This document shows, in pieces, positions 1,385 through 25,255 of a DNA stretch of 64,000 nt. The DNA is from Amyloporia xantha. Its lineage: Eukaryota; Basidiomycota; Agaricomycetes; Polyporales; Adustoporiaceae. The stretch lies in the NCBI GenBank assembly GCA_036971615.1, contig JAYKKR010000035.1:248001-312000 (forward strand), in the 5' to 3' direction. Each line of letters opens with the position of its first letter. Position 1 is the first letter of the stretch. The position numbers and the translations under genes were made by a program. The notes beneath the pieces were generated by a model. The model was not told the origin of the DNA. It made no database searches and saw only the letters and a list, made by a program, of their open reading frames with translations.

Positions 1385-2180
1385 GTGTTTCGGCGAATGC
1401 GAAGCAGCATCTCGAAGGCGTACAGAGAATACTCGAAGGACTCGAAGTATGTCGAAGAATGGTCAAAGTGGCTCGAAGGATCATGGTGTCGGAGTGCAGT
1501 CGGAATATCAAAGAATCGAAGGAAATCGGGGCGAATATTGAAGCAAGTCGTAGAAGAATCGAAGAGTGTTGTGATAGAATCGGAGGATCATCGTAGGGAA
1601 TTGAAGCGAAGCGTGGGCATAGTAGAATCAAAGCGTAGTCGAACACTCAAGCGTAATCGAGGCTCTAGAGAGGAACTGACACAAACTCGACTTAAGAGCT
1701 CTGTACTGAGGGGGAAACTAGGTGGAATATAATGTATGGAAAGAGATAGCTAAGACAGGATTTTATACTACTACTCAGAACAATCTATGAATAATTGGGA
1801 GTGGCACACTAGTATGAGTGGCTTGCATTGTCTAATGATGACACTGATTTCTATATTAGGCTCGAAGATCGAATGGCCGAGGGACTCGGAGTGGCACAGA
1901 GTGATACATGTGTTCTCCTGCTGCTCTATTGTTCGCTCAAAATGGCTAGGCTTCTTCGAAGGAATGTCTCAAAATGTCGAAGCATCGGAGCATTGTGTCG
2001 AAGCATCGTAGGAACATCAAAGGTATCAGAGATCGAGTCGAAGAATCAGAATGATCGGAGATGATCGAAGCAATCAGAGAATGATCAGAGATGATCGAAG
2101 CAATCGGAGAATGATCAGAGAGTGTTGAAGGTGTTCGAGTGAACCGAGTGTCGAATCGAAGATGTAGAGCTGGCATAGTG
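1385..2180. repeat. degenerate TCGAAG(A/G) array with 30-bp tandem at its end
   Basis: The hexamer TCGAAG recurs every ten to thirty bases through 1410-1620 and again around 1975-2160, usually followed by GA or GG. At 2061-2120 two nearly identical 30-bp units lie in tandem (one G/A difference). Overlapping open frames exist on both strands but they are products of the biased repeat, with no recognisable domain. Similar TCGAAG/TTCGAA-rich sequence recurs near 36.98-37.06 kb and 44.3-44.9 kb. Confidence 0.65.
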
Positions 2181-3536
2181 AGCCGTTTCTGAGGACAGAA
2201 GGATCAAGTACCTATCACTGTGTTCAACCTAGGTTTAACCCTGGTGAAAAAAAAAGAGGGTCGGACCTCAGTACATCGGACTCTCGGGTTGAGCTAGGGA
2301 CATTCTCCGTTGGCCCCAGGACAAAATCGTCAGACCTGCACGTGATCCCAGCCTGCCTGTACCCGTTGGGCATCCAGCACCAGATACACGTCGCATACAA
2401 TTGCAACACACATAGATACAAAGGATAAAGGTAATATATTCATTGCAGAGCGTCACTACAATAGCATACAAGGTAGGGAAAGAATGACATCCCTCCCGCC
2501 GCTGTGTCTAACCAAGATCGGCCCGCACGCGGATGGGAAACTAGTCGACTACCAGTTGTGATTTCATATTCGCACTGCCGTAAAATAATACTATCCGTGT
2601 GTGAGTATACTGGTCAGGCATGTGGAGAAACGACTGCACCTAATCACACTGTGTGAGGGGTGGCAAACAACCTATCTGCGCCCTCAGTCCTCGGTCATTG
2701 TCACCGGGCCTGTGCTCAGACTCTGATGACCTGAGGTGGGCTACATCACCTCATTTTCCATCTTGCTTGATGAGCAATATCTGAAGCCAAAGCATGAAAT
2801 GCAATATGACGAAGAATGGCAGATGCACCGCTACTAGATCTGAACATGTGAGACCATCATCACGCCCAGTGGATCCTAGAATAAACTCACTGTCCGATAT
2901 AGGGATTGCGAGATGAGCCCGCTAGGCTCCTGCAACAATATTGTGCACCACGATAAGAGCTAGACCTGTTTTGAAAAACGGAAGTGTGTCAGTCAGATGT
3001 GATTACAAGCTCCTGATCATCATCTCCCAGATGATCAGGGTACTGGGGTACTGGTACATGCACCAGGAGCTGTGAAGCTCAGACCAGACGACAAAGTGAA
3101 CATGCAACAGGAATCATCCAAACAACAAATAAAATGACTCGCAACGAGTAAGAGTGCTCATTGAACAATCAAATGATACATGGAGATCCCAACAGATGGG
3201 TGTACATGCAATATGCATTCTTCAACAGACTGAACTGAATCAGATTTTTTCAACAGAATCAAGAACATGGAGACAACAGAGACAGAGGTGTGCACAAAGG
3301 ATGAAGAACTTGGAGAAACAAAATTTTGCGGACTCTTACGTATGTGTCACATGCAAGCCACATATAACCCCAGGTGAAGCTGTGGGCGGTCCCAACCTGG
3401 GCAGATATTTTTGGTGGTATCTGGGACAAAATCGCTCTACTTAGGTTTGGCGCAATTTAAATTGGACCTGGCACAAATTTCAGAATTGTCCCCGGTCCTT
3501 TCTGGTCAGGTTGGGACTCAGGCTATTCGAAGCTCT
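2181..3536. other. no gene seen
   Basis: Mixed-composition sequence without a convincing coding frame or domain. A short open frame near 3154-3444 has no recognisable motif and I do not call it a gene. Confidence 0.5.
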
Positions 3537-3560
3537 CATCAGGAAAACCCCTCCAGGTTA
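3537..3560 (+). repeat. transposon-end-like sequence (left)
   Basis: Begins CATCAGGAAAACCCCTCC. A similar word in the opposite orientation ends at 23292 (CATCAGGAAAAAACCCCC read on the minus strand). These could be the two ends of a larger, older element into which the others inserted, or unrelated solo ends. Confidence 0.4.
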
Positions 3561-4795
3561 ATGATATAGTAAAAGCCGTAATTAGACATCATTGGACTGT
3601 ATTATCCCATTATTAAAATTACACATCATTATAGCAAACTAGTGGTCCCCCCCGGCGTACGTGGTGTCATTCTGAGTAATTTATCATAATCCGAAGCTTT
3701 CTACGCCTTTTAGCTGTACTTGCTACAGATTACTCACACAATACGATGAGATGAACCATTGAACCATTTCATTGCTGCACATACTGCCTAATTACATAAA
3801 CAGTAGCTACACTAGTACCTAATACTAAAGACTACTACTACTAGTAGCATCTCATCCGTCAACTCAGGGCCAAGTTGGAGGATGCCGCGGAGCATCAGGA
3901 AAAACACTTTTTCCCTGAGACACTCTGGGATATATGAGATTTGTCAGGTTGTCTCAGGTAGTCCCAGAGCATCCCAGGTCATCTTTGATTGCTCTGAGTT
4001 GCTCTGAGATATTCAAATAATTTCAGAGCATCCCAGGCTATCCTTTATGTCTTTAAGGTGCTTTAGAATTTGGAAGATTATATTCAAGTTGTGATTGGAC
4101 AGTCTGACATGTATATAAATCAGTTTAAGTTTATAATACTTGGTAAATTGCTGATATTTCTTAGCTCTATCTTCCTGTATTGATTGAGTCACATTGATTA
4201 GATAGAGAGATAGAAATCAAATTAGTTCCATTTATGATATCTATGTTCACTTCTTTCTATGATATTCTACAGTATGCTCTTGTACTAGCACTGTGATTTA
4301 TAGGCTACATTGAGGAAAATTCAATAATGATCACATCATGATTTGATTTCTTATTGAGGTAGAGAGGTAGATGAGTGTCAGTGTTCTTGTATGCTTTAAA
4401 ATAGAGTTGTCAATATTAGATTATTGAACAGACAAATACTTATTCTCCAACTTGATTTAGAACTTTGCTTTGAGATGCTAGTGACATTATAAAATTATTC
4501 AAGTTTTCTCAGAGAAGTTCAGAGATAGCTTGAGTTTCCATTGTACAACACTCTGAGCCAATTAGTATATCAGTCATTCCAGCTCTCAATTAGGGTAAGT
4601 TATTCCTATATTTCTGAAGAGAATATTTTAATTCAGCAATAAAAATGACCTAAGAAGAGTGTAGGCCACTAATAGTAAGTGTGATGATAGCTATGTAAAA
4701 ATGCTTGAGAATGAGACATTAAAGTAGAAGGCAGACAGATATTAGAGTGAAAATGCCAATCTGAGTGAAGAAGGCCACCATTACCTTAAATGGTA

Positions 4796-6656: not shown

Positions 6657-6877
6657 CATCAGCAAAATCAAAGTGTTTTATTATTTTCCTTTTTTGTCTT
6701 CTTGCGTCTTATTTTACCAGAAAAGGAAACTAAGGCATCAAAGGACTCAGAAAGAGTGTCGATCGCATTGGGGCAAGACACGCTCGCATTATAGATTGTC
6801 TTATTTTCCTTACACAAGACATCAAGTCCAAATAAGGAGAAAAAGGTAAACAATACAAATGTTTGATTTTGCTGATG
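6657..6877. mobile_element. 221-bp MITE with CATCAGCAAAATCAAA ends
   Basis: The left end begins CATCAGCAAAATCAAAG and the right end, read on the minus strand, begins CATCAGCAAAATCAAAC: 16 identical bases in inverted orientation, followed by similar T-rich sequence. Flanking bases TG on both sides could be a 2-bp target duplication. No coding capacity. Its first six bases match the Plavaka ends just downstream. Confidence 0.75.
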
Positions 6878-7166
6878 TGCTACCGGCCACTTCCGCTCAT
6901 CATGTGACACAAATGCGAGATTTTGACCAAGTCCGAAATCTTGCTCTAGGGAGCAATATGCCAGTTTGAAATTTCGGCCCACCTTTTGTTCTGTACATGT
7001 TATTTCATTTCATATGCTGTTCAGTAGATCAGTTTTCTGCCACATATGGAGCAGTTATGGTTCATCCGAGTCAACTGCTTTGAGCAATAATAGCCCAATA
7101 TTCTGATATATTATCTGTAGTTACTTAATTTCCGAAGGACACAATGTCAAGAAGATTTTCTTAAAA

Positions 7167-7196
7167 CATCAGCAAATGTCAAATTTGTCTTATTGT
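7167..7196 (+). repeat. left terminal inverted repeat of the Plavaka element
   Basis: Starts CATCAGCAAATGTCAAATTT and continues GTCTTATTGT. Pairs with inverted copies at 22802-22831 and 23369-23398. It lies 322 bases beyond the transposase stop codon. Confidence 0.75.
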
Positions 7197-7488
7197 GTCT
7201 TAATGTACTTAACAAATCCATTAAGACCAGAAAGACCAGAAAGACAATGTACGCCGCAGACTTAATTTACTTTTTGTCTTTACAACGTGCTGCTAATATA
7301 CTATCGAAGTATTTCAAGTAACTAAGTAAAATTTACAAGACAAAAAGCATGCTGCAAGTTCTAAAGTACCCATTCAAATCGGAACTAGTGTGAACTTGAA
7401 CTTGAAGTGGAAATCCGACAAAGCAGCCGAAGACAATCTGTGTAATATAATATGTGAAAGCCATCATAAACCACATAAGTACATTAAG

Positions 7489-10400
7489 CTACCCTAGGAT
7501 TTCGAACATGTGGTGATCAGCGAACCTGTTCACATAGAAAGTGCGGAAGGCATCCAAGGAATAAAAGTGGGTCATATCATACGGTACTTGTGTGGTTCCA
7601 TAGACTGGTATCAAATGCGCCGCTCGGACAATGCGGTTAAGAGGAATAACACAAATGTTTGGAGAACGATCAGCTTTGCGAGCTGGAGTGACAACCCACA
7701 TACCTGTATCCTCGTCCGGCTGGTTCCCTATACAGTCGAAGTGCCGGACTAATGCACACTTGTACTGTGTATTTTGATGACGGAATGAGAAAAGTAGAAG
7801 AATACGGACAATGTCAACACTGCCGTTAGGTGCGCTGTGATCGTCAAGATCGGGCTTGAGGATTGCGCAATCAAAACGAGGTGCACCCTTGAACCATCGT
7901 GGCGAAGCCCGAAGGTGTTCACGATGCATTCCACCAACACCGCTCGCATCGCTGGGGGCAAAATATGTGGCAGCGGCAGAGTAATGTATGTTGATCCTTT
8001 CCGAGTCGTTGAAATGTGGGCATTGATTCAGAGCTACGTCGGAGCCTGGGATACCAATGTCCGGCATGAGCTGGTCATATAGAAACCGCCGTATGAATTG
8101 CGGTAGTCTGGGCTGCTTGATTTCGGCAGCAACACCGCTAACTGATCGTGCATGGCGCCGCTCTACACATCACCAATAATCAGAGAGATAGCTCGGATAC
8201 TATGAAATGCGCTTACGGATGGTCACCGCCATAGTTACATATCCTTCAACTGTTGGCCCAGGTAAAGCCTCATCATCTCTGTCGTGATCTATTCCTGCCG
8301 CAGCATTTGCATTTGCGCTTGCGTTCGCATTTATGACGCAGTTCTGATCACCTTGTTGTGCATTGTCATTGTCCGGGTCTTGTTGAAAGACCCTAGGTAA
8401 GTATCTTTGTTAAAAGCTAAATAAGACTGATTTACCTAGAGCACGATTTGTCGCGACCAAGAGAGGTTCTCGCAGCATGCCACGACTCACAAAGTCTACG
8501 CGCGATGCTGCTAATTTGTCGAGTCGTTGGTTGGTCAGAAGCATCTGACCGAGAGCGTTATAACGACTTGAACGTCGCCAGGGCTCCTTGACAGCCTTGA
8601 TATGCTTGGATTCAGTAATAGATGAACACAGGCCATTCGGAGCTCCAAATTCCCAGATGAGAAATAGATAATGTAGCAGGGAATGTTGGCGAGGAAGAGA
8701 GAACCCGTTTACGCGAACCCCATGTAATGCAAAGACGGGACGGTATTGGTGAAAGTGTTTTAAAGCGTTGTCGAGATCTTCCAGACTTTTCATGGTGTGT
8801 ACATTCCGTCTTGCGATGTAGCAGAATTCAAGGAAAGCGCGAATTGCGCGTACCATGTCCCGCGGAACATGCCCAGCAATTGCGGGGAGGTAGACCTGCA
8901 TGAATGTAGAATAAGAGCTGCATATGCGACAGGGATGCGAGTACTATACCTTCATAAGTGCCTTGGAATCATCCCCGGTCCATTGCTTGAAGGCCCGGCC
9001 TTCGGGAAAGCGGCGCAAGCCAGAGAATGCAGGAACAACTGCAATCCTGTAGTGAACTAATCAGTAGTCCGGACGGCTCTTTTGTGATTACTAGACTTAC
9101 CGTCTGTCGATATCAGCCAAGATCTCTTGTGCTCGTGTATTGCCATGCTTCTGTGTAAGGTATTGTCCAACCCAATCTACTAAATGGTCCTTGAATGTTC
9201 CTTTGATGAGCTGATGTAGAATGTCGGGTGATAGCATTTGGTGGATGTCGGCGCGGGGGAAGTCATTAGTGAAAGGCTGTCAAGGACAAACAACAATCAG
9301 TACTTGTAACAATAGACTCGGACAGAAGATAACAAAACGACTGAAAACGAAAAGGTAAATTATAAATTGAACACGGCCATCTTGAGAAGCTGAAGTGTGC
9401 CAGGGAACAATGCTAGCACGAGGGTCAAGCCTTGAAATCATGGTTAGGCAGAACCGTAAGAGCCTGAACCCATTGAGGCATGTTCGCCGTCATCGGCTGC
9501 CAGTGGCGCCACTTCGCAGCCACACCGAGGGATCCACGGCTCTCGAGAAACTTCATCGTCTCCTCAGGGCGCGAATATTTGCGTCCTCCGCGTCAGCGCG
9601 TCCTCGTGAATGCTCGTTCGTTTTAGTCCTCCTGATCCATGAACTGAGTGTCGATGTCCGATGGAAGGACCTCATGAGTGGGCAGCACAGTGGAAGGGCT
9701 GTTGCTGATGTAGTCGGTAAGCTCATAGATAATACCGTTGTAAGCTCCTATGAATCTTCTAGAGCGGGCCATGTCCGACAGGTCCGAAATTGAGTAACTG
9801 GCCTCAGGCTAGTATGCGACGCGGTTGTTTCACCGCATCTGGACCATTGATTCAAAATACCAATCCAGACGGGGATCACTTGTCCGTGCTCGGACTCGTG
9901 ATATTGAGCATTGCGGTCTGTATTGTTGCAAGAATCCTGCAGAATGCAGTGGTTGACGGATCTGAGGGTCACAGAGCGTGCTTGCGCATGTCGTTCAAGT
10001 TCGCTTCCGTCAACTACGCTCCGTGCCGTCTGAATGTCCTGCAAAACGCTTCTTGTTGAAGGCTCAGTGGGCGCAATTTTCATCGAAGACATTGAGAACA
10101 CACTGTGCGTCCGGGTCCGGCTGCTTCTGGACGTCTTGGCTCCAACAGAGCTGAATGAGTGACCGACTGTTCGTCTTTCGCAGTTCTCCAATTCACGAGA
10201 CTCGTCATGACATCCCAGGACGACCACTTTAGGATGCGCTCCTGTAGTTTCGCGCACCATAGATACCCACTGTCGGACCGACGAGAGCAGGAAGAGGCAT
10301 CTTCCTCCCTCAGAACTACCGAGGTCCATGAGCTTCGACACCGAATCCTGGTTCGGGAATCAGCGAAAGCACGATGACGGCTACCTGCACAAGAGGTCTG

Positions 10401-13400
10401 ACCTTGTAAATGTGGATCTGTGCCACATCGGCGTGCAGCGCGTATACGCGAGGAAGAATGCATCAAGAACGAGGAAAGCTATGATACTATATCGGCTTGC
10501 GACTGAGAATATCCTGAATCTCAGCGATCGTACGCGTTGCTTCGATAGGTGGACCAGGCAGTATGCTGAGACGCTGTTTCGTCGTGTTCAGTATCTGCTG
10601 AACATTTGGCAGCACTCGCGTGATGTAGGGCGAAATGAGCGGGGTCCTGTAGATAATTTATGAGCGGCCACCACTTGATGCATAGACATTATAACATACC
10701 ACTGTATTGAGTGACGACGCAGCCCGCTGCAACCACCACATGGACACTTTGAAAGACTCGTCGAGAGGAGATGTCTCGCTAATGACACTTGACAACTATT
10801 AGCAAAAACCGTCAGATTCAGATGTCAACGTCATTTAACTGAATAGGCACGCACCCGGTGCATGAGAGTGAGCACAACAGCCGAGAAAGAGGGCTCTGCC
10901 CACTCAAGGGCATGATCACTTTGGGGTCCGATCACGCTAGCAGCTCGCGGAGCTGGCGAATATCCTGGGTACCAAGCACAGCAAGATACGTGTCATCCCA
11001 CTCCTCAGATTGGGCAGGAGGGGAGGAGCGCATCATCTGCTGGGGTGGTAGAGGCGGCGGCGCAGTCGGATGTGATGCCTGTGGCGCAGCAATGTTGGCA
11101 TTGAACCAATTTGGATGTATTGGCGGAGGTGTTACTGTTGTTGTTGCTGCTGCTGCTGGAAAGGCCCATGCATTGGAGGGTTGTACTAGTATTGATGCGA
11201 CTGAGTGTTGGGAGGCATATTCTGGTGTGTGTTAATTGCTGCCAGACGTACGCGGTGAATTCCGAGGTTGTATGGAGTGTGTAATGGTAGAGGCGTTGAG
11301 GGTAAGGAACTTCACTTGGTCGGACAGAAGCCTGACTGATCGCTCGAGTTCACGGATCAAGGACTGTGTATCTCATAAGAACAGAGACAACAGAAGCCAA
11401 AAGAAGACGCACCTCTTGTCCTCTCAGAGCTTCAGTCGGCCATGTTATCACCTCTTTCTTCAGACCCAGGGTCTCAGTGTGAATCTCTTGCGATAGCTCT
11501 TGGTGCATCGCAGACGACTGCTGCATGTATGCAGGAATGAGAGTTTTGGTGATCGCGCCTTTAACGTGCCTCTCGATGACAGGCGTCACCGTCCCGGAGA
11601 CAGGACGTGCGATGTGAGAAGAGATGTCCGGACGCAGGAGCATCCTCTCGATCTTGTTCGGGAGTGTCTAGGCGAATAACATGAATTTGAAGTCACAAGA
11701 AAAATGTGAAGCGTCATACCTGTTTCATAGAGTCTGACATCCCCTTAGAGATCTGATTGCTGAGCGCAGCCTTCACCTCGGTCTTTGTGATATTCTCGAG
11801 GGAAGGCAAAACCGAACTCTGCACTTCGGACTTGACTGCCATCTCGACGACGCGTGGTATTTTTCGTCAGTTCCGTGGATATTAACTTCAGGATCTTCTC
11901 TTGACGGACAAAGTCAGCTGCCTGCCCGTTGGCGCGAGCCTCCTCCAAACATTGATCTGAGAGCCCATATTCAGGAACAAAGCCCGGGTAAGCCAATGTT
12001 ATACTTACGTTGCTTGTCGAGCTCCTTGCCAATAAGGCGTCCAATACGCGTGTGGAGACTTTCTTCCACTTTCCTGATCTCCTTAGATAATGCAACACCT
12101 AGCGGAGATTCGTTGATGACTGCGGCGTCCCCTCCGCGGCCTCTCGCTTCATTCACCTTGCCATTGTCGTCCTTGTCTTTGTCCTTCCAGCCGACGTTCT
12201 TCCCTTTTGCATTCTTGCCCCTGGCCTCCTGGGTGCACCCGCTCTCGTCTCGACTATGCTTGCCTTCGACTTCTTCTGACGGTGGCGTCTTCAGCCTGGG
12301 TGGAGGCACACTGACCATTGGTACGGGCTGAGGAAGTTGAGCCATAGGACCACTTGCCAGGGCTGGTAGCAACATTTGTCTGGCAGGCATGACTTCGGCA
12401 GCCTGAGTCTGCTAGGGCGCGGGTAGTGGAAGGTACGAGGGGAACCTAGCGGGCACCGTATTCAAAGCTGAGTTGAACCATTCCTTCCGGATCAGGACTT
12501 GGTCAACGCCACTCGAATGTACAGCGAACGCAACCAGTGCCAGCTCGCCCGGAGGCACCTTCGCGGCAACACAGGCAGCGTGAGCCTCCTCGCCTGTAGG
12601 ATCGGCATCTGCAGTGAGAATGGCAAAATGAATGGTGGGCTTAGGTTCTCCGAATTCCAGAACCTGATCGATGTATGCTCCTCGGCCGACGTCTTCTCCA
12701 ACAGGAGAAGGTGTTGAGCCGTCGAAGTTGATTCTCGGCACGATTATACTATCTCTACGGTTGTTGGCCCCTTACAGAGTCTGGATCCTGGAGTCGTAGC
12801 TGACATGACCGAATCGCAGTTTAAACCTGCAACATGAAAGAGACGTCAGCGTAATGGCTCTGCTAATAGTGAATCCTGCGCTCTCACCAGAAGAACATCC
12901 CCGCCTCAGGTGTGTTCCATTCCGCCAGCCCTGGAAGGTGCCGCTTGAGCGCATTCTCAAACACGTCCCACTTCTCACGGTAGAACAGCGAGACGGTCTC
13001 GGTGTGCGTCTTGAACCCGTCGTAACCCCAGGCGCCCAGTAAGGAGTACGTGATCGCCTGCGTCAGGGACGACGTCTGTAGGTTCGCCACTGCCGTCTGC
13101 GGTGGTCGCAGCACGATGAGATGATAAGCGACGATGAGGGAGAGGAGGACGAACGTGCATGTCGATGGCTCGCATCAGAGGCTCGGGTCTGCACGCGAAG
13201 CCGATGCGGATGCCGGACGAGAGAATCTTCGACAGACTGTCGAAGCGCAGCACTCGTCCGACTTCGGGCTCCTGCAATTCTAGTGTGAAGTACGACGGAT
13301 AGCGGGGTGCATCTCCGTAGTAGAGGTAATAATATGGATCATCTGAAGGCGAGTGGATTTCAACAGATAGAGCACAGGACGGCAGGCGCGATTCCTTACC

Positions 13401-16400
13401 CTCTGTGATGATGAAATAGAACTCCCTTGAGAGAGCGAGAACATCCTTGCAGCGTTTCACTGTAGCGGTCATCCCTGTCGGATTACAGCCATACTGACGG
13501 ATCTCAATGGGTTAGAGGCAAACAAGAACAAGGCCAGTGAATAATAGGACTCACATGCACGGTGTAGAGTACTTTTGGTCTTGGCTTCGATGCAGGCCAG
13601 TTTTCAAGGATGGTACGGAGAGACTAACAGGGGAATCGCCCGTACGACGCTGCTGTCGGGGTTGCTGCTGAGGCTTCGGAGGAGATGCGCGAGGAGGCGA
13701 AGGAGCGTGGGACTCGGAGGGTTGAGGGGGTAACGGTCGAGACGTGCACGTTTGCGCAGGATCCACCTGCGAGGATGTATCCTCGCTAGCAGTATAGGGG
13801 TCGTACGGAGAGGTTAAAGGGGCAGATAATGATGGCTGTCCCCTAGAAAGCTGCTCCCTCCATCATATTCTCGACGGATCGGACAAAGCGACGGAGCGCT
13901 GACATGAATTCTGTATTGTCGTCGGTGAAGTAGGGATCCAGTACGACAAGTCACAGTCAACAGAGGGCGCAGAGAACAAAGAGGCGGAGAATCCTTCCGA
14001 GTACACTCCAGAGTCACAACTCCAGGAGAAAGTGAAGCAGAAGGAGGCGGAAGTCACTGACTTGACGGTACGCGCTTTCGCGCCTTCTCGCTGGCACCGA
14101 CTTATGATCTGACATTTGACTTCTTCATTCCTATCTGGCTAGGGCCGATTACGGTATCTGCAGGCAGACTACCTCAACCTCCAGCGTAATGCTGCGAGGG
14201 AAAAGGAGCAGACGAAAGACTTCGCCATCACCCGCTTCGCCTCCGACCTCCTGGAGACCGTCGACGTGCTCTCCATGGCTCTCAAGTCCGTTCCCGAATC
14301 CGTCCTTGAACGGGCTTCTGCCGCTTCATCGTCTGATTTGTCGCCATCCTCTTCAGCCCCGTCAAATCCCCCCGCATCCGAAAAGTCTCCCGAAGCTTAC
14401 CTGCACGAGCTTCGCCATGGCGTGGAGATGACTGATGAGGCAGGATGCAGGTAGCGTGATGAGGAGTGGTCCATTAGAGCATATAATGTCGCATTGATGT
14501 TGATACCTAATTAACGAATCTCGACCCCGAACTCTTCCTTCAGACGCGATACTACTTCGGCATGAAGTGTATTTGTTTCTTCGTTTGACAGTGATCTATG
14601 GGCCATGTATGGCATCAGTTATGAATCATATGAGACTTGAACATAGTACTCACCTATCCATCGACCTGTAGTTTATGCGATAGCACCGACTGGTCTTGTT
14701 TGTCTTCGGATGAACAAAGCTGTCGATCTGAAGGTATACAATATCAGCATGAGCGCGAGATAATTTCGCAGAATGACATACCATTTTGACATCCTCAGCG
14801 AGGTCGCCGACCGCGTCTCTTACAAGATCATAGACGTCATTGTCGTGCAAACCCCCATCTGGCACCCAGAAGCTGACATCTTTGTAGCGTGGTGGGTATT
14901 TTGAATACGGCTTGAAAGTGGTGATCTCGCCCGGCCTAAACTGTGAGAGGAACCGTGGGTCTTCTGACCAGAACAACCGTATGTCTGGGATAGAGAATAG
15001 AATCATGGCGATCGGCTCCAGACCAAGTCCGAAAGCCCAGCTGACGTTGTCCGGTACATCTGTCAGCGTGCACGTGAGATCGACACGGAGAAATAGGAGA
15101 GAGGTACTCACTTGCCCGGTCCAGTGTCCGCTGCTGCACCACGCCACATCCAAGGATCTCCAGCCATTTGCCGTGGAAGAATACCTCCACTTCATAGCTA
15201 GGGCTCGTGAATGGAAATAGGCTTCGATCCATCGCACGCGCAGCGGCTCCGCCAACCCTGCTCCAGTACGCCCGTCGCCCACCGAACAGCGCGAGCATCA
15301 AGCTATTCAGAGACAACTTCAGGTTAAGCGCAACAAGTTCGGCATGTCGAGGGTCGTGAGAGGGCTGAGCCGAGTTGGATTCCGACAGGTGTGGGATTTC
15401 CTCTATTATGATGTTTGACTTCGCGACATGCGCGCCGAGACGCATGTTGTCCTCCTCGAGCTCGGCCACACCGGCCGCAGACGCGGTGAAGGCACGCGCC
15501 CCCTCCGTCTGGTGGAACACGGGGTAGTGCGACGCGTCGATCTCGTCGCGGTGATAAACATCTGCGGAGAGTAGCCAGCGGCGCTCGTTACACGCGAAGA
15601 CCTCGACTTCGTGCGCCAACGTGTGTGTACGTAGCATGAGGTCGCGGTTAATATAATAGCTGTCCGTCAGTGCACGACCAGGGTGGTCTGGAGGGAAGCC
15701 GAGGTCGTCAAAGTTCTTCGCAGGTATCACGAGCGGTAACCAGCCGGACAGGGCGGGGAAGGTAGGGAAGTGAGACTCTGTGAGCGAGCAAAGAATGCCG
15801 AGAGGATGGAGATGGGCGGGCTGCAGATACAGGTTGTGCGTGAACTTCTGGGTAATGGCGGAGGTGATGTTCGTGCTAGAGTCGGTAGGATACTCGTGTC
15901 CGGAGAGCCACGCTCGGATGGCTTGCTTGTTCATTTTGCGGTTAGAGGAAACGTTATGGGGGGCTGCGGTGGTCTACAGTTATTCAAATGTTAACCAGCA
16001 AGCTGGCCGCCTAGGGAATGGGATATAATGAGAATCAGAGATTGAGAAGGTAGAGGGCGACGAGCTAGAATAACCTTATAACTGTTAATCGGGCTGCTCC
16101 AGGCAGAGTGGCGCAGTTCAAGACACTGGACAGCGCAAGTCGGGCATGGTGGACGTCTTTTGCACGTAGATGATAGATGATGTTTGCACGTAGATGATAG
16201 ATGATGGCGAATAAGAGGATAGTGGAGGCGCTTGTTGGTGCAAGAGGAACGGAAGAGAGAAAGGCTTGCGAACGTGATGATCGCATGAGACGTGCAGAGA
16301 GACAGACAATGATTAGAAAACTGCAGGGCCGAGATCTTCGTCGCCCTCGGCAAGAGTACAGATACTCTCCATAATGTCAGTGGAGAATTAAGAGAAGACA

Positions 16401-18602
16401 GAACAAGAAGAATAAAACAAAGACCAGAGTGAAAACTCTCACTTACGACGATATCACCGACGATGCCATATTCCTCCCATAGAACTCCCAGTTCATATTC
16501 TTCAACTAATACATCTGTATGTGTGCGAGAACGGCGCCCTGCATCAGACCCATCGAGGTCGTTGTTCCTAGCGGTGCATCTGAAATACAGCTTCTGTCAG
16601 TAGAGATCGAAAGCACGAGAATCTCAGAGATTGTAGCATACCTAGCACACCATCCTTGCACTATACATGCAAGGAGGGCTTGTTCGGGATAATCCGCTAT
16701 GTAAGGCCCCAATCCATACAGGACTCGACGAAAATAGCCGTCCGCACAGTATATGACTTCAGGTGTTGTCATGCCCCTTTTTAGAGACATCAAGATTCTT
16801 GATAAAGACGTGTGGAAAAGCTGGCGGCGGAACTTGCGGAATTTAGGATCGTTTTTGTAACGCCTATCCGCTACAAGTATGCGTGCTCGAGTCAGAGAAG
16901 TTCAGCAACACCAGTACATAATACTTACTTTTGGGTATTGCCAGAAATCCAAGCAAAGCGATCGCGTTGCGATGTGCTCGACGAACATTATTGTGCGTAT
17001 TCCCGATACCTATGTAGAGCGGATAGTATTCGGTCTGACCAGTGGCGACCGAGACAGTTGTCTTATCACTTCCTAATATGATAGGAACAAATGCCGACCC
17101 ATGCGTGCTGGGATCTTCGGCAATGATATCCTGTAAATGTATTGTAAATACTCGTCTCCATGGTTGAATATAAATGGAATCGTACCGCTTGCTTCCAGGC
17201 CCAGTCACCGCCCATGAAGTTCTTGAGTATTCGGTCGCCATCAACGAACTCACGCAGAGGACCAAAATCGATTTCATCTTTGAAGTCCGTATTACCGACC
17301 ATATTTCGCACAACGGAGAGTGGGTCTCGGTACCAGACGTCGAATTTTGCCGACATCCACGGAGGCGCATTAGAGTCGGGCATATCACCCTTGTAGCTCA
17401 GACTAAACGACTCCCACTTTACATCACCCAGTAATGTTGCGTCGATCGTTGAGTATAAATGGTCAGTGCTGGTGAACGGCGGCCCATCGTTGTGCTTGAG
17501 AAGTGTCGATGCCCAAAGGTCCATCAGGATATTAATGTTGCCGCCCGACATTTGGTCGCGCACATAAAGGAATTCAGCGGTTTCAAAGCCATTCTTGCTA
17601 TTGTAAGGACTCCAGTCATTTTGCGAAACGGTAGGTCGAGGAGGAGGAGGTGCATCGTCTGGTAAGAACTCGCCATGTTCATCGCAACGCTTGCCTGAAA
17701 TACAGGAGAATCCTTGAGTAAATGCCTAGCTATGCTGATGAGACGGTGATTCACATACCATTGATGTACGGGTGATACTCCCGTGTTATGCCTACAGGAT
17801 CCGGATCATACGGCTCATGATCATCAGGATCATGAGGAGGAACTTCCTCCTCATCCGAAGAACTGTCCTCCTCATCATCTTCTGCAGCTGTACTGCGTTC
17901 ATCGCTGAATAGCAGATCGTCATTGTCACTGGAGATGTGACCGCCGTCACTGTCTAGCGTCGAAGGGTCTTGTTCTCCGTTTTGCAATAGGTAGTCATTG
18001 AAATCGTCAAAATCTCCCTGTGGATCGTTGTTGTTGGCGAAGTCAAAGCCTTCTAGGTCTGAGGAAGCTGCATCTGCACGCAAAAGCAGGTGAGCTTATT
18101 TACCCGACGTAATTCTGTGACACTTACCTGTGCTCGCATGCATATCCTCCGGCATACTTTTGTATGCATGATCTTCGCTTGATGGGGACCGCCGGGTATC
18201 GAGCTGTGGCCCTCTATCATCATCAGACTGTAAATCCATCTCGTCATTGACCTCCTCGTCGACACTAATTGCATCCGGGCTGTTAGCTATATCACCGCTG
18301 CTTTCAGACTCGGAATCTGTCTGCTGCACATGCGAACGGTCAACTTGAGCACCACCACGGCGGTCATTTGAGCTGCTTGCTGCGGCTGGTAGGTGAAGCT
18401 GGGCAGCGCGAACGCGTGCTCCACGCGACTGGACAGGAATCGACCGCGGGCTGGTAGGTGCGAGCTGAGCAATAAGGTGCACATGCTGCGTTCGGATGTG
18501 CTTCTTGAGCCCGCTGGAGCTCTTGAACCAACGATTGCAGCGAGGAGCACTGCAAGGCCAGCGAATTTTCCTGCGCACGGGTGGAGGAGAAGGAGAAGCC
18601 AT
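7489..18602 (-). CDS. Plavaka-family transposase, 1143 aa, 11 exons
   Basis: Exons on the minus strand: 18128-18602, 17759-18073, 17186-17694, 16929-17130, 16642-16870, 16447-16579, 9101-9276, 8950-9046, 8436-8895, 8217-8378, 7489-8162. They join into 3432 nt without a stop. Introns are 54-64 nt except intron 6, which is 7170 nt. The start at 18602 gives an N-terminal C2H2 finger (C17, C22, H35, H40), then a Ser/Asp/Glu-rich stretch, then the conserved body. Family signatures I recognise include [67 protein letters not shown] and DEDTGMW. Plavaka proteins are nuclear cut-and-paste transposases of the CACTA group; I cannot point to the catalytic triad with certainty. Every splice junction keeps phase, including GTC|gtaagt joined to ttgacag|CCT across the large intron, so the gene may still be expressed. 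It shares a short upstream spacer with the accessory gene at 18927. The main doubt is whether intron 6 is really spliced. Confidence 0.85.
9360..10480 (-). other. unidentified part of the intron cargo
   Basis: Open stretches occur on the minus strand, for example one with [20 protein letters not shown] near 9660-9770 and one with [18 protein letters not shown] near 9430-9510, but I recognise no family and the frames are broken. It probably represents one more captured fragment or the 3' flank of the EDC4 piece. Confidence 0.35.
10487..12765 (-). pseudogene. EDC4: EDC4 (Ge-1) mRNA-decapping scaffold, C-terminal half, broken
   Basis: EDC4 proteins scaffold the DCP1/DCP2 decapping complex in P-bodies. 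The piece starts after the WD40 region, with [10 protein letters not shown] and [19 protein letters not shown] (about 12480-12735). It then shows a low-complexity linker, a coiled-coil region ([35 protein letters not shown]) and the C-terminal alpha-helical domain ([44 protein letters not shown]), ending at a TAG at 10487-10489. The WD40 half is missing because the fragment abuts the aminotransferase fragment. Lesions seen: a frameshift near 11848-11855, a CGA to TGA change at 10932-10934 in the LLARSDP motif, a one-base loss near 10880-10890 and an extra C near 10641-10645. Introns are still present, so this is a DNA-level copy, not a retrocopy. Confidence 0.85.
12772..13623 (-). pseudogene. 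PLP-dependent aminotransferase fragment (Aro8/aminoadipate type)
   Basis: Fold-type I aminotransferase resembling aromatic-amino-acid/2-aminoadipate transaminases. Visible in order: [20 protein letters not shown] (about 13556-13620), YGCNPTG (substrate and cofactor loop), [17 protein letters not shown], the PLP-lysine motif [16 protein letters not shown] near 13200-13260, [19 protein letters not shown] and [16 protein letters not shown]. Exon borders with GT/AG remain. Both ends are missing: upstream of 13623 the sequence is unrelated and Pro-rich, and translation stops at 12772 soon after FKLRFG, well before the normal C-terminal domain ends. It directly abuts the EDC4 fragment. Confidence 0.8.
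13951..14454 (+). pseudogene. MGE1: GrpE/Mge1 fragment (mitochondrial Hsp70 nucleotide-exchange factor)
   Basis: GrpE exchanges nucleotide on mitochondrial Hsp70. Two exons remain: one ending at 14067 with [16 protein letters not shown], then a 75-nt intron (14068-14142) and an exon with [41 protein letters not shown] and [11 protein letters not shown]. The C-terminal beta domain is missing, with a stop at 14452-14454, and no mitochondrial targeting segment or start codon is found upstream. This is the only cargo piece on the plus strand, which shows that the block was assembled from several sources. The end lies about 60 bases from the end of the PheRS copy. Confidence 0.85.
14511..15934 (-). 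CDS. MSF1: mitochondrial phenylalanyl-tRNA synthetase copy, motif-3 Arg lost
   Basis: Class II synthetase that charges mitochondrial tRNA-Phe. Exons 15112-15934, 14782-15059, 14654-14727 and 14511-14595 join to 1260 nt (419 aa) without a stop. Seen: motif-2 region [59 protein letters not shown], and the anticodon-binding domain with [13 protein letters not shown] and [17 protein letters not shown] near the C-terminus. Motif 3 reads GLGLEPIAM where the family has GLGLERIAM; the CCG codon is at 15013-15015. That Arg contacts ATP, so the enzyme is probably inactive. No mitochondrial presequence is present at this ATG; the frame stays open upstream to a possible acceptor at 15973, so a first exon may be missing. 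It lies wholly inside the transposase intron and is probably a captured copy; a separate functional gene is expected elsewhere. Confidence 0.8.
15990..16446 (-). other. intron sequence next to the capture junction
   Basis: From 16446 down to about 16375 the sequence resembles the start of the same intron in the second Plavaka copy (CT-rich, with TTCTGTCTTCTCTT). The remainder, up to the PheRS copy, shows no gene. It includes two copies of a 24-bp unit in tandem at 16159-16206. Confidence 0.6.
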
Positions 18603-18926
18603 CAGAGTCAGAGTATACACAGAGAGGCACCAGAGGAGTCTAAGTCCTTCCGTCGTCCGAGACTTGAAGTGGCTACTGGGGGCAGTTAAAATTGAGATAA
18701 ATTCCACCAAATATATTTAAATTTTGAGACATGATCCAAACAGGACTTGACAAACATTGCGATTGGTGAGGAATCTGAAAGCAAAGTTTCACCGTTTAGA
18801 CGCCTAGCTCCAATCGCGCTGGCAACAAATTGAACTTGAAACAAACCTCGCTTCGTACTTCCTCTTCAACCTCAACCACCTCACGCACCGCCGTCGCTAT
18901 ACGCCTCACCTTCTCATATCTCGACC
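18603..18926. promoter_or_regulatory. divergent promoter of the two Plavaka genes
   Basis: The 324-bp spacer between the two start codons. Near 18711-18725 an AT-rich ATATATTTAAATTTT block could serve as TATA for the transposase, about 110 bases from its ATG. A pyrimidine-rich run and GACC before ATGG precede the plus-strand start at 18927. The assignment rests on position and composition only. Confidence 0.5.
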
Positions 18927-21459
18927 ATGGCCTACAAGACTCGTGCCTCGAATGCGGACAAACATCCAGGCAAAGTCGACGCTCCTGGCACTCGACGGTC
19001 TAAAGCCCAAGTCAGCGCAGCAAAGCAGGAAGCCGAAGAAGAAAAAGAGAAAGCAGATGAAGAAAAGCGTTCCAAGACCCGTCGAATTGCAAAGCTAGAG
19101 GACAAGATGGCTCTTTCCGACGAGAAGACCGAGGCGCAGAGGGTGAAGAAGCCCTCTGCGCCTAAGAAGGCATCTGGTCAGCGTTCCCTGCCCCTGTATC
19201 GTACTTATGCGTCACTCAATGTTCTTGAAGACGATGCTGCAAAGCGCAAGCACAAGCGAGCTGTCTCCCAGAGCGAGGACGATGCCTTAGAGGATAACGC
19301 CGACTTTGGATCAGAACTCACTGAGATCGAACCGGAGGAGGAAGAGCCGCCAGCCAAGAAGAAAAAGCTGATTCCTAAGGCGCGACAGGCTATCATTGCG
19401 GCTCGTCAGCAGTCCTCAGCTGCCGGTGTCGAGGCCACAGACAAGGCGGAGGAGAGCCAAAGTGTGAAGAAGCATGGTGGGAAAGATGCGCCACGCGGTG
19501 CTGGGTGCGTGATCGTGTTGTTCTGTCAGCCACTGTACTGATCTTCGTCGATAACGTCCCGCCATGCTCCTGCTCAACGAAACCACTTTATACTACCACA
19601 CTTTCTGCACTAGGGACTCGGACGCGGCTGCGCAATCAGGTCTTATCAAACAGTGGAACTTAGCTGTTTCAGGCTGGGAGTCGCAGTCAAGGGGTCCAAA
19701 CAGTGCTCGTACCGCCACGTCAGCAACGGCTATCTCACAGCCCAAGAACAAGCCCAAGAACCAGCCGGCGAAAAGCAAAGGGAAAGGAAAACAGAAAGCA
19801 GCCCCGGTTATCCATGACCCTCCGTCTGATGACCCTCCGTCTGATGCAAGTCCTGATGAAGTACATGACAGCAATGAAAACTCCATTGCGGTCAAAGTGG
19901 GTGAATTCTTAAGTGACAACGAGGACACAGAGCGGGTGGCCGCGATGTCTAGTCCTATTAAAGGTCCCGGAAAACGTCTGACACACGACGTAAGTGTGAG
20001 ATCTTCCATTGTCCCCTAACTAATGCCGCCGCTTCATCCAGGACATCATCGATGTTGATATGACACCTGTGCCTAAGATGCAGCGCAAGACGACGCAGGT
20101 AAGGAGACATACTTTATTGATTTTGAACGGTTACATACTCTCGTTGCAGGGTGCGGTTGCTATTCAAGACATCAGCATGCTTGATGAAACGCCGAAGCCA
20201 AAGCGCAAGGCCTCCGCTGCATCGGTACGTACCCAGAATATGTTCTCCTTCAACGCTGATGTTTGTTTTGTGGTCTTCAATCTCATAGCGTGCTCCAAAG
20301 ACGGAGGAAGCGGACATCATTCTTGTCGAGGATGAGAAACTGCCGAAGGCTGCCAAGGAGCGCACGAAATTCAAAAATTCTGATCTGCCGGTCGGCTACG
20401 ACAACAACAAAAGGTGGAGGGGCGTTTTCATACCGACAGCCTTCGAATACACAGGCACTCTGAAGAATCCTTGGGTGTGGGATGAATCGAGCACCGTTCC
20501 GGTCACCCAGACCATGTGGAACGCGGCCTATGTCAAAGTTCCCAGGGGAGTGCTGGTCATCAAATACCGTGTCCTGTTACTCGAAGACCCGGTCATTCAT
20601 ATTGTAAGTGACACCGCTCAGTCCACATGTATGTGTTTAATGTTACGCAGATGTCCCAACGGGTTTGCGAGTGGCGATCGGGGTTCGGCTCTACCAGCCT
20701 CTCCATCTTGGAGAGCCTTTTCAAATTTCGGAAGTACACTGTAGACCAACGTATGGAGTTCGCAAAATACCTCCTGCGTGACAAACGTTTCTTGTGGAGG
20801 GACACATCGTCTGATGACCCCACTGTGCGTAACACTTTTTTCTTGTTGCTATTTATATAATTGGCATTCCAGGAGTGGCTCGGATTGTTCCAATCTGTCT
20901 TTATTCTTCGCACTCTTGCATGTCACTTCACGGCCATCAGAGGAGCGTTGAAAATCAAGGAGTTGTATCCGCAACCGGCCCGTGACTCAGATAACGAAGA
21001 TAATGAGGAGAGCGAGGAACTTCCGATTGTTCCTCCTCCATACGGTGCGATCGGATTGGCAGCTGCAGCTGTGAGTATCGTTTTAGTGTACACGCCATTG
21101 TCCGCTGATGTCTCATTCAGTTTGAACGCGCGCTGCGTCTCTGGGCCTTTGGTTGTATGTCACTCAATAACGAGGGTGAATATGTGATCGACAAGACTAT
21201 CAATGGCGACTCCGGTCAGTCCAGCAACAAGGCCAATGCTTTCGAGGAGAAACAGTGGGGCCAGAAGACTCGTGACTACATCAGATCTGCTGTCAGGTTA
21301 CCGGAGGTCAAGCTCAACAAGATCCTTGATGGTAGCCGTGCTTTTGCGAAGCAATCAGCTGGTGGTCGCAGAAGTGGCAGTAGCCACAAGGAAAGTAGGA
21401 TGTCTGATGACGAGGGTGATGATAGTCGTGCGCATCTAGTTGATCGCGAGGAGGACTAG
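18927..21459 (+). CDS. Plavaka accessory protein, 703 aa, 8 exons, function unknown
   Basis: Exons 18927-19504, 19614-19989, 20042-20098, 20150-20224, 20289-20603, 20651-20824, 20873-21070 and 21121-21459 join to 2112 nt in frame. The N-terminal third is highly charged (Lys, Glu, Ala) with coiled-coil character and basic runs such as PAKKKK that could be nuclear signals. The C-terminal half is more globular and better spaced, with WRGVFIPTAFEYTGTLKNPW, RVLLLEDPVIH, DQRMEFAKYLLRDKRFLW and CHFTAIRGALKIKE. I know this type of protein as a neighbour of Plavaka transposases in mushroom genomes but know of no assigned role. By analogy with TnpA of plant CACTA elements it might bind the subterminal repeats; that is inference. 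Confidence 0.85.
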
Positions 21460-22091
21460 GTGCAGAAGACAACGGTGGGTGACTGTTTCACAGCTTTTCT
21501 CAAATTCTCATCATGTTCTATAGGTCGCAATCACTGGTATATACACGGAACCAGTGTACACCATCGTCTATCTGCATGGACTCTTGTTTGATGTGTACAG
21601 TAGGTAACTGGTCTCGAACATGGCTGGCCCAGGGATGAACATTCATACATACTGCTGATCTTCGTGTTCTTCTCTCCATACATGCCAGTACTCTTTATCT
21701 ATGCTAGCTATCCTTCAGTTGGTTCCCTTGTTCTTGCTGACAAAACATGCTCTCCTGTTGCTTTGATTGCCACATACACGCGGTATTACTTTTTAGTGCT
21801 GATCTGCTTATGGACTTGTCTAGCTTCTTGTTATGTGCTTTGTCTAACACTTTGCTGATTACCTGCTCTACTTCTTGCTGCTTTTTTCACTTAATATTCC
21901 TACTTTGCTTATTGGACTTTAATGGTCATATATAGCTTTTGGTGTTGATCACCATAGGTACTGGCCAAGTTTTGCTTTACTATGGTATTGATGAACTTAC
22001 CTGCAATCTTATGGACACTTTGTGATGTTCTTAAACTGACTGAAGAATTGGACGAACATACTTTGAATGAGCTTTCAAGGCCTTTTTAAAT
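21460..22091. other. AT-rich 3' flank of the accessory gene, no gene seen
   Basis: Composition drops to AT-rich after the stop at 21459. Short open frames near 21664-21935 are rich in Cys, Leu and Phe and look like chance. Probably the subterminal part of the Plavaka element. Confidence 0.55.
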
Positions 22092-22398
22092 ACTTTATAT
22101 TACTTATGGATTCTTATAGACCTATTCAGATGCTTTAATGTTTAAATAAAAAATGCTTTGATGTTCTTAAAGGTCTTTGAGAATGCTTTAGTGTTCTTAC
22201 AGATCTACAAAAAATGTTTTAATATACTTAAAGTTCTTTAAAAACACTTTATATTACTTATGGATTCTTATAGACCTATTCAGATGCTTTAATGTTCAAA
22301 TAAAAAATGCTTTGATGTTCTTAAAGGTCTTTGAGAATGCTTTAGTGTTCTTACAGATCTACAAAAATGTTTTAATATACTTAAAGTTCTTTAAAAAC
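22092..22398. repeat. 154-bp tandem duplication
   Basis: Unit 22092-22245 is repeated at 22246-22398 with very few differences (one A shorter in a poly-A run, one T/C change). Within each unit, words like GTTCTTAAAGGTCTTTGAGAA recur in diverged form. Likely a subterminal repeat of the surrounding element. Confidence 0.9.
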
Positions 22399-22801
22399 AC
22401 TTTATTGTTCTTATAGTATTCTTATGAACAACTTACAAGCCAGGCTAGACCCATTGTTCTTAATCTGAGACTTTACTGATTCTTAAGAGTCACTTAAGGC
22501 TTCAATGGGGCCTAAGCACAGCTTCAGTTAGTGATAATCAAGCTTACTGTTATCCTACAAAACAGTTAGAAAAGCAAAGGTGTGAACTTAGCTGTCTTAT
22601 TGTCTTATATGCTCCTCAAATACTTCTTAATAGACCTTGATCAAATCCATAAGTCTGGGAAAGTGATATAATACAAGTTTAAGCACAACCAAAGTGAGGG
22701 GATCGTATTAATTAAGATCACTTGGCCTTAATTAAGTGTGTCATGTCTTATTATTATCTCAACCATTGGTGTACTTATGGACTTGCCCAAGACAAAAAAG
22801 A

Positions 22802-22831
22802 CAAAAAAGACAAAGTTGACATTTCCTGATG
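22802..22831 (-). repeat. inner right inverted end (Plavaka family)
   Basis: Read on the minus strand it starts CATCAGGAAATGTCAACTTT, matching 25 of 30 bases of the left end at 7167. The bases AA flank both this end and the left end at 7165-7166, so a 15.7-kb element ending here is possible. Confidence 0.6.
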
Positions 22832-23269
22832 AATCTTGATGGTCATGACTAGATATAAGTCAATCATGTTATGACAAGTTATTTTCAGTATGAGAAGGGT
22901 ACAAGAGGGTTTTGCACAGATTACTTATATTTTCTCACTATTATCCCAATTACTTCAGTGCACTGGATGCAGTTTAGGATATTTTCGACAACAATACTCT
23001 AAAGATATTCTAAAGACAGTCAGAATAACCTTGGCATTTTACAGTGAACAAAATCCTAACATTATTCAATTAAGATTCTAATCTTTTGACCACATTTACA
23101 ATATGTTCCAACCTACACAATATACTTACCACACTTTTAAAGTACTGAATAGTGGATTATGCTAAAGGTATTTTGACTAACTTTATAATATTTTCACCAT
23201 ATCGCACTCAACAATATTCTAAACCACATCCAGTGGTGCTACATAATTTTGTGTCATTATTACACATTA

Positions 23270-23292: not shown

Positions 23293-23368
23293 TGGCTGTG
23301 TACCTACATCCAGTGATCGTCTTATTTTCAGCTTAGTTCACTTATTGCCTTATATAAGACAAATAAGT

Positions 23369-23398
23369 ACAATAAGACAGATTTGACATTTCCTGATG
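23369..23398 (-). repeat. outer right inverted end (Plavaka family)
   Basis: Read on the minus strand it starts CATCAGGAAATGTCAAATCT, matching 28 of 30 bases of the left end at 7167, and shares a following TGTACTTA word. Best match to the left end. Confidence 0.65.
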
Positions 23399-24439: not shown

Positions 24440-25255
24440 CGTGATTGGACTTGGAAGCAGGCAGTAGGTCATTCTCATCCGATAGCAGAGAAAGTGTTCC
24501 TAACATGGTCACAGGATATCATCGCCAAAGATCCAAGCACACATAGGGCAGCGTTCGTTCCGATCATTCTAGGAAGTGACAAGACAACGGTCTCCGTCGC
24601 AGCGGGTTAGACAGAGTACTATCCACTCTATATCGGCATAGGAAATACGCATAACAACGTCCGTCGGGCACATCGGAATGCAATTGCGTTACTTGGGTTT
24701 CTAGCAATACCGAAAAGTAAGTACCACGTTCATATCAAAACTCCTCTCTGACATAGCTATACAGCGGACAGACGTTACAAGAATGATCCCAAATTCCGTA
24801 AATTCCGCCGACAGCTCTTCCACTCATCGCTATCGAGGATTTTCATGTCTCTCAAGAAGGCAACGACGACACCTGAAGTTATTCGCTGCGCGGACGACTA
24901 CTTTCATCGCGTCTTGTACGGACTGGGACCTTATATCGCAGATGATCCTGAGCAAGTACTTCTCGTGTGGCAGGGGTGGTGTGCCTGGTATGTGTTAGGT
25001 TTATGTTCTTGGTTCTGCACTACTAATCAGATTGGTACTTTAGATGCATCGCTATAAATAACGATCTCGATGGACCTAACGCCGAGCGCCGCTCCCGTAC
25101 ACATACAGACATACTGGTTGAAGAACAGCAACTAGGAGACCTGTGGGAAGAGTATAGCATTGTCGGCGACATTGTGGTAAGTTTTCACTCTCGGGTCATG
25201 ATTTGTTTCCTGTTCTTTTTTCTGTTCTGTCTTCTCTTGATTCTTCGTACCGCTG
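24440..25255 (+). pseudogene. second Plavaka transposase copy, internal fragment
   Basis: Corresponds to the end of exon 3 through exon 6 of the transposase at 7.5-18.6 kb, on the opposite strand, with the same intron positions. Seen: [83 protein letters not shown] and LWEEYSIVGDIV. A CAG to TAG change at 24608-24610 breaks the frame. Similarity to the first copy starts near 24440 and stops about 75 bases into the intron that follows GDIV. The N-terminal finger region and the whole C-terminal half are not found in this window. Protein identity to the first copy is high by eye, so the two copies are related but not recent duplicates. Confidence 0.85.

Follow-up and report, generated by a model that had tools for sequence, protein, structure and literature searches.

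Host gene pieces held in one transposase intron of a PlavakaB transposon lineage in Amyloporia xantha

Fungal Helitrons, which are rolling-circle elements, capture genes, and we know of no transposase intron that is involved in this. Among transposons with terminal inverted repeats (TIRs), both the capture of gene pieces and the idea that such pieces camouflage the element and protect it from silencing are already published, and the carriers described in these sources are either non-autonomous or hold the pieces outside the transposase gene (PMC8903248, PMC8978399, PMC2528002, PMC13317346). For example, Pack-TYPE elements are non-autonomous by definition (PMC8903248), and CACTA and other elements hold captured fragments beside their transposase gene, as described in Chenopodium (PMC8978399) and in grapevine, where the fragments comprise exons and introns (PMC2528002). 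Large introns are on record for maize En/Spm and soybean Tgmt*, the TNPD-coding region lying within intron 1 of En/Spm (PMC2613891). PlavakaB, a group of the CMCT clade, is described by a PF18759-type transposase, CATCA..TGATG termini, target duplications of 2-3 bp and the motifs C(2)C and H(3-4)H, and some of its families carry a TET/JBP gene (Kojima 2025, PMC12730594). Here we report a PlavakaB-type transposon of the polypore Amyloporia xantha in which host gene DNA lies in the sixth intron of a transposase gene with an open reading frame (ORF). It lies in a stretch of 64,000 nt (the window; GCA_036971615.1, contig JAYKKR010000035.1:248,001-312,000, forward strand), to which coordinates without a prefix refer; labels such as C12, C17 or C55a follow the contig numbering of the same genome, and the "window" copy is the element studied.

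The window element agrees with PlavakaB in its termini, target duplication, transposase family and motifs, and differs in its intron: in the PlavakaB description, as far as it was searched, neither long introns nor gene fragments within an intron of the transposase are mentioned (PMC12730594). Like plant Pack-TYPE and Pack-CACTA elements, it holds copied host gene pieces inside the TIRs of a cut-and-paste element (PMC8903248), but unlike Pack-TYPE elements it has an open transposase frame and carries the cargo in an intron of that gene. The name "Pack-type" given to it in an earlier, sequence-only reading of this DNA therefore fits loosely: host gene DNA is indeed captured between the TIRs, whereas the open frame of 1143 codons does not agree with a class defined as non-autonomous (PMC8903248). 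The Chenopodium and grapevine fragments lie up- or downstream of the transposase ORF, whereas the window cargo is intronic (PMC8978399, PMC2528002), and the intron of En/Spm contains the transposon's own coding sequence, whereas that of the window contains host genes (PMC2613891). With fungal Helitrons the element shares gene capture by a fungal transposon (PMC4289320). Our literature search, whose coverage left out most subscription papers, found host cargo confined to a transposase intron nowhere described, and a 2026 plant review (PMC13317346) does not use the word "intron" in its main text. Capture by TIR elements is known; the confinement of the cargo to a single transposase intron seems to be new. 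The element is bounded as follows, homology to other copies ending at both sides.

7167-22831, minus strand: complete PlavakaB-type transposon of 15,665 bp (8,495 bp without intron 6), with TIRs CATCAGGAAATGTCAA / TTGACATTTGCTGATG
22816-22831, minus strand: 5' TIR, 16 bp, one mismatch against the other end
7167-7182, minus strand: 3' TIR, pairing with the 5' TIR
22832-22833, no strand: target site duplication TT, 5' side
7165-7166, no strand: target site duplication TT, 3' side

Its termini read CATCAG..CTGATG. The transposase gene, on the minus strand, has 11 exons that join to 3432 nt, encoding 1143 amino acids and a stop codon without an internal stop.

18128-18602, minus strand: exon 1, with a C2H2-like match below the Pfam cut-off
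17759-18073, minus strand: exon 2
17186-17694, minus strand: exon 3, in which the PF18759 Plavaka domain begins
16929-17130, minus strand: exon 4, with the putative first catalytic D, D455
16642-16870, minus strand: exon 5, with the putative second catalytic D, D560 (D544 being the alternative), and the first C of C(2)C
16447-16579, minus strand: exon 6, its last residue being 621 (GDIV)
9277-16446, minus strand: intron 6, the cargo intron, 7170 nt
9101-9276, minus strand: exon 7
8950-9046, minus strand: exon 8
8436-8895, minus strand: exon 9, with the H(3)H motif and the putative catalytic E807
8217-8378, minus strand: exon 10
7489-8162, minus strand: exon 11 with the stop codon; a BAH-like fold in a modelled homologue

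The exon-by-exon reading upheld what the sequence-only reading had claimed for this gene, namely the in-frame joining of eleven exons, normal and in-phase splice sites at intron 6 (donor 16447|gtaagt, acceptor cag|9276, phase 0) and the contrast between its 7170 nt and the 54-64 nt of the other nine introns. The start of exon 10 was set at 8378 (AAG acceptor); a TAG 14 nt upstream would break the frame. The proposed adjacency of GDIV and PFTND in the family was also borne out, the junction being spanned in 120 of 120 homologues among the matches listed (2299 in all), 117 of which cross it gap-free within about 5 residues. PF18759 matches residues 337-657 over profile positions 1-325 of 325 (E 5.6e-133, in a scan of the first 860 residues of the spliced protein) and so straddles the intron 6 junction at residue 621. 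Motif columns invariant or nearly so in 30 homologues point to D455, D560, C575/C578, H783/H787 and E807. From motif order and the strands of a structural model, D455, D560 and E807 would form the catalytic triad, with both D residues encoded 5' of intron 6 and the E 3' of it. This arrangement, in which the C(2)C and H(3-4)H motifs follow the second D and precede the E, is that of PlavakaB, and the catalytic core is RAG1-like, in keeping with the RAG1/Transib-like fold of the CMCT clade.

The long intron is a trait of the family. In 21 measured copies, the window included, intron 6 is long (1989-9459 nt) in 13 and short (49-74 nt) in eight; this count omits a copy at C4:1142-1150k in which no 5' half was matched, the elements at C13:98k and C34:2.07M, and many more distant matches of the genome search. 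In distant long-intron copies, taken exon by exon, the other introns that were measured have about 48-69 nt. DNA searches yielded six further full-length relatives with the transposase halves in the window's order, the lengths of their intron 6 being as follows.

C23: intron 6 of 9459 nt
C55a: intron 6 of 6884 nt
C55b: intron 6 of 6887 nt
C25: intron 6 of 6886 nt
C17: intron 6 of 6366 nt
C16: intron 6 of 4533 nt

Both checks that the sequence-only reading had proposed within the genome thus gave positive results, short-intron forms being present and six more elements joining the two halves over introns of 4.5-9.5 kb. The eight elements with both ends have total lengths of 12.2-18.0 kb and, minus intron 6, just 8,398-8,874 bp. 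All eight have CATCA..TGATG termini, and seven are flanked by 2-bp target duplications. GT..AG and phase 0 are kept at the intron 6 junction in 13 of 13 long copies.

In the window, intron 6 is made up of the following parts, in 5' to 3' order of the gene; percentages are identities to the host locus named.

16098-16446, minus strand: 5' part of intron 6 common to close copies
14434-15901, minus strand: captured piece of a mitochondrial PheRS gene, C12:2154961-2156414, sense (93%; PF01409)
13943-14432, minus strand: captured neighbouring GrpE gene, C12:2156696-2157189, antisense to the transposase (96%; PF01025)
13626-13879, minus strand: captured piece of an EDC4-like WD40 gene, C12:3039410-3039653 (91%)
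12808-13625, minus strand: captured piece of an aminotransferase gene, C17:494120-494928, sense (89%; donor matches KAT/AADAT)
10450-12813, minus strand: captured 2.4-kb piece of the EDC4-like gene, C12:3035838-3038225, sense (91%; donor ORF matches WD40 chains)
9277-9461, minus strand: 3' part of intron 6 with the acceptor, common to close copies

Of the cargo identities in the sequence-only reading, PheRS, GrpE and the aminotransferase stand. Profile matches support the first two (PF01409 at 4e-23, PF01025 at 3e-10), with the PheRS donor ORF also matching TIGR00469 pheS_mito below its cut-off, and the third is named from matches of its source to kynurenine/alpha-aminoadipate aminotransferase. 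The name EDC4 was not confirmed, the scanned pieces giving no Pfam match and just a WD40 match to solved structures, and we therefore write "EDC4-like". Against its source (C12:2154961-2157189) the PheRS/GrpE capture lacks 281 bp. Other copies carry other genes. C55 and C17 hold clathrin heavy chain (C8:262032-266275), rearranged in C55 and colinear in C17 save for a 495-nt insert; C23 additionally holds C34:332603-336060 (93-97%), which is peroxidase-like by two sub-threshold Pfam matches; C12 and C22 share C12:1288530-1291185, from a gene with many homologues and no useful name, to which C22 adds C1:3029584-3031002 and high-copy repeats; C10 and C42b hold the plasma-membrane proton ATPase (C11:670043-672554); C41 and C3 hold Rpb1 (C1:4110080-4111392) flanked by two pieces of a 0.4-kb repeat; and C16 holds a bromodomain gene 86-88% like C1:3441629-3443454. 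This last locus is an uncertain source, because the stretch adjoining it (L048:1948-2095) matches the window and C17 introns near their 3' ends at 72% (window 9475-9634, intron positions 6813-6972); the locus may be the relic of an older element, or a capture that was shared long ago.

Host loci 85-97% identical to the cargo thus number nine, or ten with the bromodomain locus, two of them (C34:332603-336060 and C1:3029584-3031002) known from search matches alone. A tblastn search of the eight fetched loci with Plavaka exons found none. As the like loci are still elsewhere in the genome and, in these eight, free of Plavaka exons, we take them as the sources and the cargo as copied. At sixteen listed fragment junctions there is an overlap of at most 6 nt or filler of at most 4 nt, which is what template switching or end joining, rather than site-specific recombination, would be expected to leave. 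Capture of the longer pieces as processed complementary DNA was rejected: alignments continue without large gaps through shifts of the source's open frame (5 gap positions over clathrin source 1381-4021), and introns were therefore captured too. Copies sharing a capture have since lost, inverted or reordered pieces. Later insertions are also seen, one of about 495 nt with a 6-bp overlap in the C17 clathrin piece (intron 2673-3169) and, in the C22 intron, high-copy repeats measuring 0.78 kb and 1.6 kb. A 558-nt EDC4-like cargo piece has three further copies (86%) within 80 kb, at C34:1498150, 1521637 and 1575671.

In two trees of 15 copies (protein; codon positions 1+2; the C18 and C34:2164k copies, with the 5' part only, left out), the eleven long-intron copies together with C58 are set apart from three short-intron outgroups with 100% support. 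C58, whose intron 6 has 56 nt, sits in the part lacking the window clade and C16 (support 97, 99), its exact sister having low support (46, 70). Its place inside the long-intron group means that a long intron 6 was ancestral and then lost in C58, or grew independently at least 2 times. Pairwise blastn found no shared fill among the window clade, C16, C12/C22, C10/C42b and C41/C3, and we therefore count five largely separate capture sets in the same one of ten introns. The one hint of common fill is the 72% match between the window and C17 introns and the stretch beside the bromodomain locus.

Both sides of intron 6 are under purifying selection between loaded copies. Ratios of nonsynonymous to synonymous substitution rates (dN/dS) were taken from 17 pairs with gapped and stop codons dropped, synonymous sites being saturated in 6 of the 17 and C41/C3 having four changes in total. 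For six pairs of close loaded copies they are 0.017-0.078 in exons 3-6 and 0.094-0.148 in exons 7-9 and 11; the corresponding values are 0.032/0.077 for C10/C42b and 0.085/0.113 for C12/C22, and those of window/C16 and C17/C16 fall between 0.057 and 0.097. The 13 codons of exon 7 before the window clade's first Met also mostly keep their amino acids, the synonymous/nonsynonymous changes from the window being 0/0 in C23, 2/0 in C55b, 2/0 in C17, 4/1 in C16, 6/1 in C10, 7/1 in C12 and 6/2 in C41, with 3/1 between C10 and C42b (12 codons) and 3/0 between C12 and C22; we take this to mean that translation still runs across the junction. Intron 6 would then be spliced as one intron (16447/9276) to give the full transposase. 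By transferred gene models, the frame is open throughout in the window and C17 alone among the seven full-length copies; most of the intron 6 fill differs between these two.

The loaded element is mobile as a whole. Over 15.37 kb, which takes in the cargo, C55a, C55b and C25 share about 99.85% identity and are told apart by 12 private substitutions and 23 private indel columns, and as these near-identical elements sit at separate sites with different flanks and their own 2-bp duplications (AG, TA, AT), movement of the whole follows. C41 and C3 are likewise 99.5% identical over the 5.6 kb compared, the match stopping 2 nt beyond the terminal repeat. Mobility as a unit, as in PlavakaB, is thus seen in the trio, and is indicated for the window copy itself by its TIRs and TT duplication.

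Together, these data make it probable that a PlavakaB (RAG1/EnSpm-like) cut-and-paste lineage has repeatedly acquired host DNA and, in the copies examined, held it in intron 6 of its transposase gene. Host DNA may have been copied into the element by template switching or end joining during repair of a break or excision gap. Insertions into exons or termini would kill the element and those into an intron could leave it autonomous, so that survivors lie in an intron because captures elsewhere would destroy the element. Once grown, intron 6 would present a larger target for further gains, losses and shuffling. The transcript would be spliced from exon 6 to exon 7 across 2-9 kb, the loaded element making its own enzyme, and element and cargo would then be moved by the element's ends, with transposase from this or another copy; the movement itself is shown by copies and duplications. 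That a loaded element stays autonomous is suggested by the open frames of the window and C17, by selection on both halves and by the putative catalytic residues on both sides. Several points weigh against this reading. The capture step is its less certain part, and the evidence for splicing of intron 6 consists of frame, signals and selection. The frame appears broken in five of the seven full-length copies (C23, C55a, C55b, C25 and C16, by the transferred models, in which exons 1-2 of C16 are poorly mapped), and C42b has an extra base about 19 nt into exon 7; some of the breaks may be assembly errors, since private indel columns outnumber private substitutions in the trio. C17 has a weaker intron 6 donor (GTTAGT) and no target duplication. 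The long-intron copies as a clade without C58 were rejected by the approximately unbiased test (p 0.027 for protein, 0.007 for codon positions 1+2).

It is of note that ordinary drift might yield a similar picture, intron 6 merely tolerating insertions and the host pieces being by-products of nested transposon insertion and repair. The high-copy repeats in the C22 intron and the shuffled, inverted and lost fragments agree with this, but single-locus DNA makes up much of the fill; it comes from nine or ten loci, forms five largely unrelated sets and lies throughout in one of ten introns, and we regard drift as a possible but somewhat doubtful account; it differs from the reading of repeated capture mainly on the need for anything beyond survival bias. 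A less probable view is that the loaded elements are non-autonomous passengers, their long intron badly spliced, that are mobilized in trans by the transposase of short-intron relatives. Such relatives exist in the genome, and the apparent frame breaks extend to the recently moved trio. On the other hand, purifying selection acts on both halves between loaded copies, the frames of the window and C17 are open, GT..AG and phase 0 persist in 13 of 13 long introns, and no short-intron member occurs in the window clade or with C16 among the copies measured, which together make the passenger view unlikely. Constraint on both halves would be equally expected if the cargo had split the gene in two and the halves acted as two proteins meeting in trans. 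This we consider very improbable, as the halves would divide both the putative triad (D, D and E) and PF18759, the 13 pre-Met codons of exon 7 mostly keep their amino acids, and donor, acceptor and phase are retained in the 13 long copies. An assembly join of two loci, named by the sequence-only reading as what would overturn its proposal, found nothing in its favour and has practically no chance of being right: chance and misassembly are untenable because seven full-length elements on six contigs share one exon order with five intron contents and differing flanks.

Under repeated capture into intron 6, these elements bear on the usual picture in which gene-capturing DNA transposons gave up their transposase, since this lineage seems to keep both. 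An autonomous element could in this way copy, shuffle and spread host gene pieces. The lineage also offers natural tests of two points: whether introns of 2-9 kb can be spliced in a fungal gene whose other introns have about 55 nt, and whether captured pieces of important genes protect transposons from silencing, as has been published. In automated annotation such a unit would probably appear as two truncated transposases and pseudogenes, so the class may be overlooked.

Pairwise dN/dS of cargo against source is low, 0.06-0.30 in nine comparisons. In three-way splits, changes shared by two cargo copies against the source are mostly synonymous (synonymous:nonsynonymous 16:1 for clathrin heavy chain, 43:1 for the proton ATPase, 9:0 for PheRS in window/C23 and 3:0 for the EDC4-like gene), with contrary splits in C12/C22 (12:6) and in PheRS of window/C55b (4:5). 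Capture from a diverged relative by horizontal transfer, which the low pairwise ratios had suggested, is possible but not needed, as mostly synonymous shared changes fit a resident gene constrained after the capture. Fully neutral cargo was not borne out either: in all eight branches tested (coding pieces of C17, C55b, C42b, C10, C12, C22, window and C23), changes private to the cargo remain biased towards synonymous sites despite stops and indels, with mutation-corrected ratios (0.24-0.62) below those of copies that decay freely. Some constraint, gene conversion or an origin of the captures in diverged alleles may be the reason. The main piece runs in the transposase's direction in 8 of 8 single-gene captures that could be read from protein matches (two-sided sign test 0.008), namely EDC4-like, aminotransferase, clathrin, ATPase, bromodomain, Rpb1, the C12:1.289M gene and the peroxidase-like gene with its sub-threshold Pfam matches; the PheRS/GrpE capture is mixed in strand, a strand call is missing for three further donors, and the C23 and C55 cargo contains small secondary inversions. 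Such a bias could plausibly arise if transcription passes through sense-oriented gene bodies without ending early. A tentative idea, which we rather doubt, is that selection favours the carriage of constitutive host gene bodies in sense within intron 6, which would then be maintained as a cargo bay. The strand bias speaks for it; if true, silencing of the element may come at a cost to the host, and an autonomous transposon would gain host-like sequence with its enzyme untouched.

Two further features lie in the 5' half of the window element.

22056-22414, no strand: subterminal tandem repeats, unit of about 155 nt, common to close copies
18840-21459, plus strand: divergent second gene region with several open frames, within the 5' stretch 16098-22831 common to close copies

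A Pfam scan of two pieces of the second gene region gave no match, to a TET/JBP domain or otherwise. The outer boundary had been placed at 23398 in the sequence-only reading, which proved wrong, as the element stops at 22831. At 23333-23398, 567 bp outside it, lies a second Plavaka TIR-like copy oriented as the element's 5' end, which could in principle serve as an alternative outer end. The plus strand at 24511-25182 holds a decayed piece of a related transposase (exons 4-5, 87% amino acid identity, two stops), with a similar copy at C5:899454. About 290 bp beyond the other end of the element, positions 6657-6877 hold a 221-bp palindrome resembling a miniature inverted-repeat transposable element, with Plavaka-type ends (CATCAGCAAAATC..TTTTGCTGATG) and CA/CA flanks.
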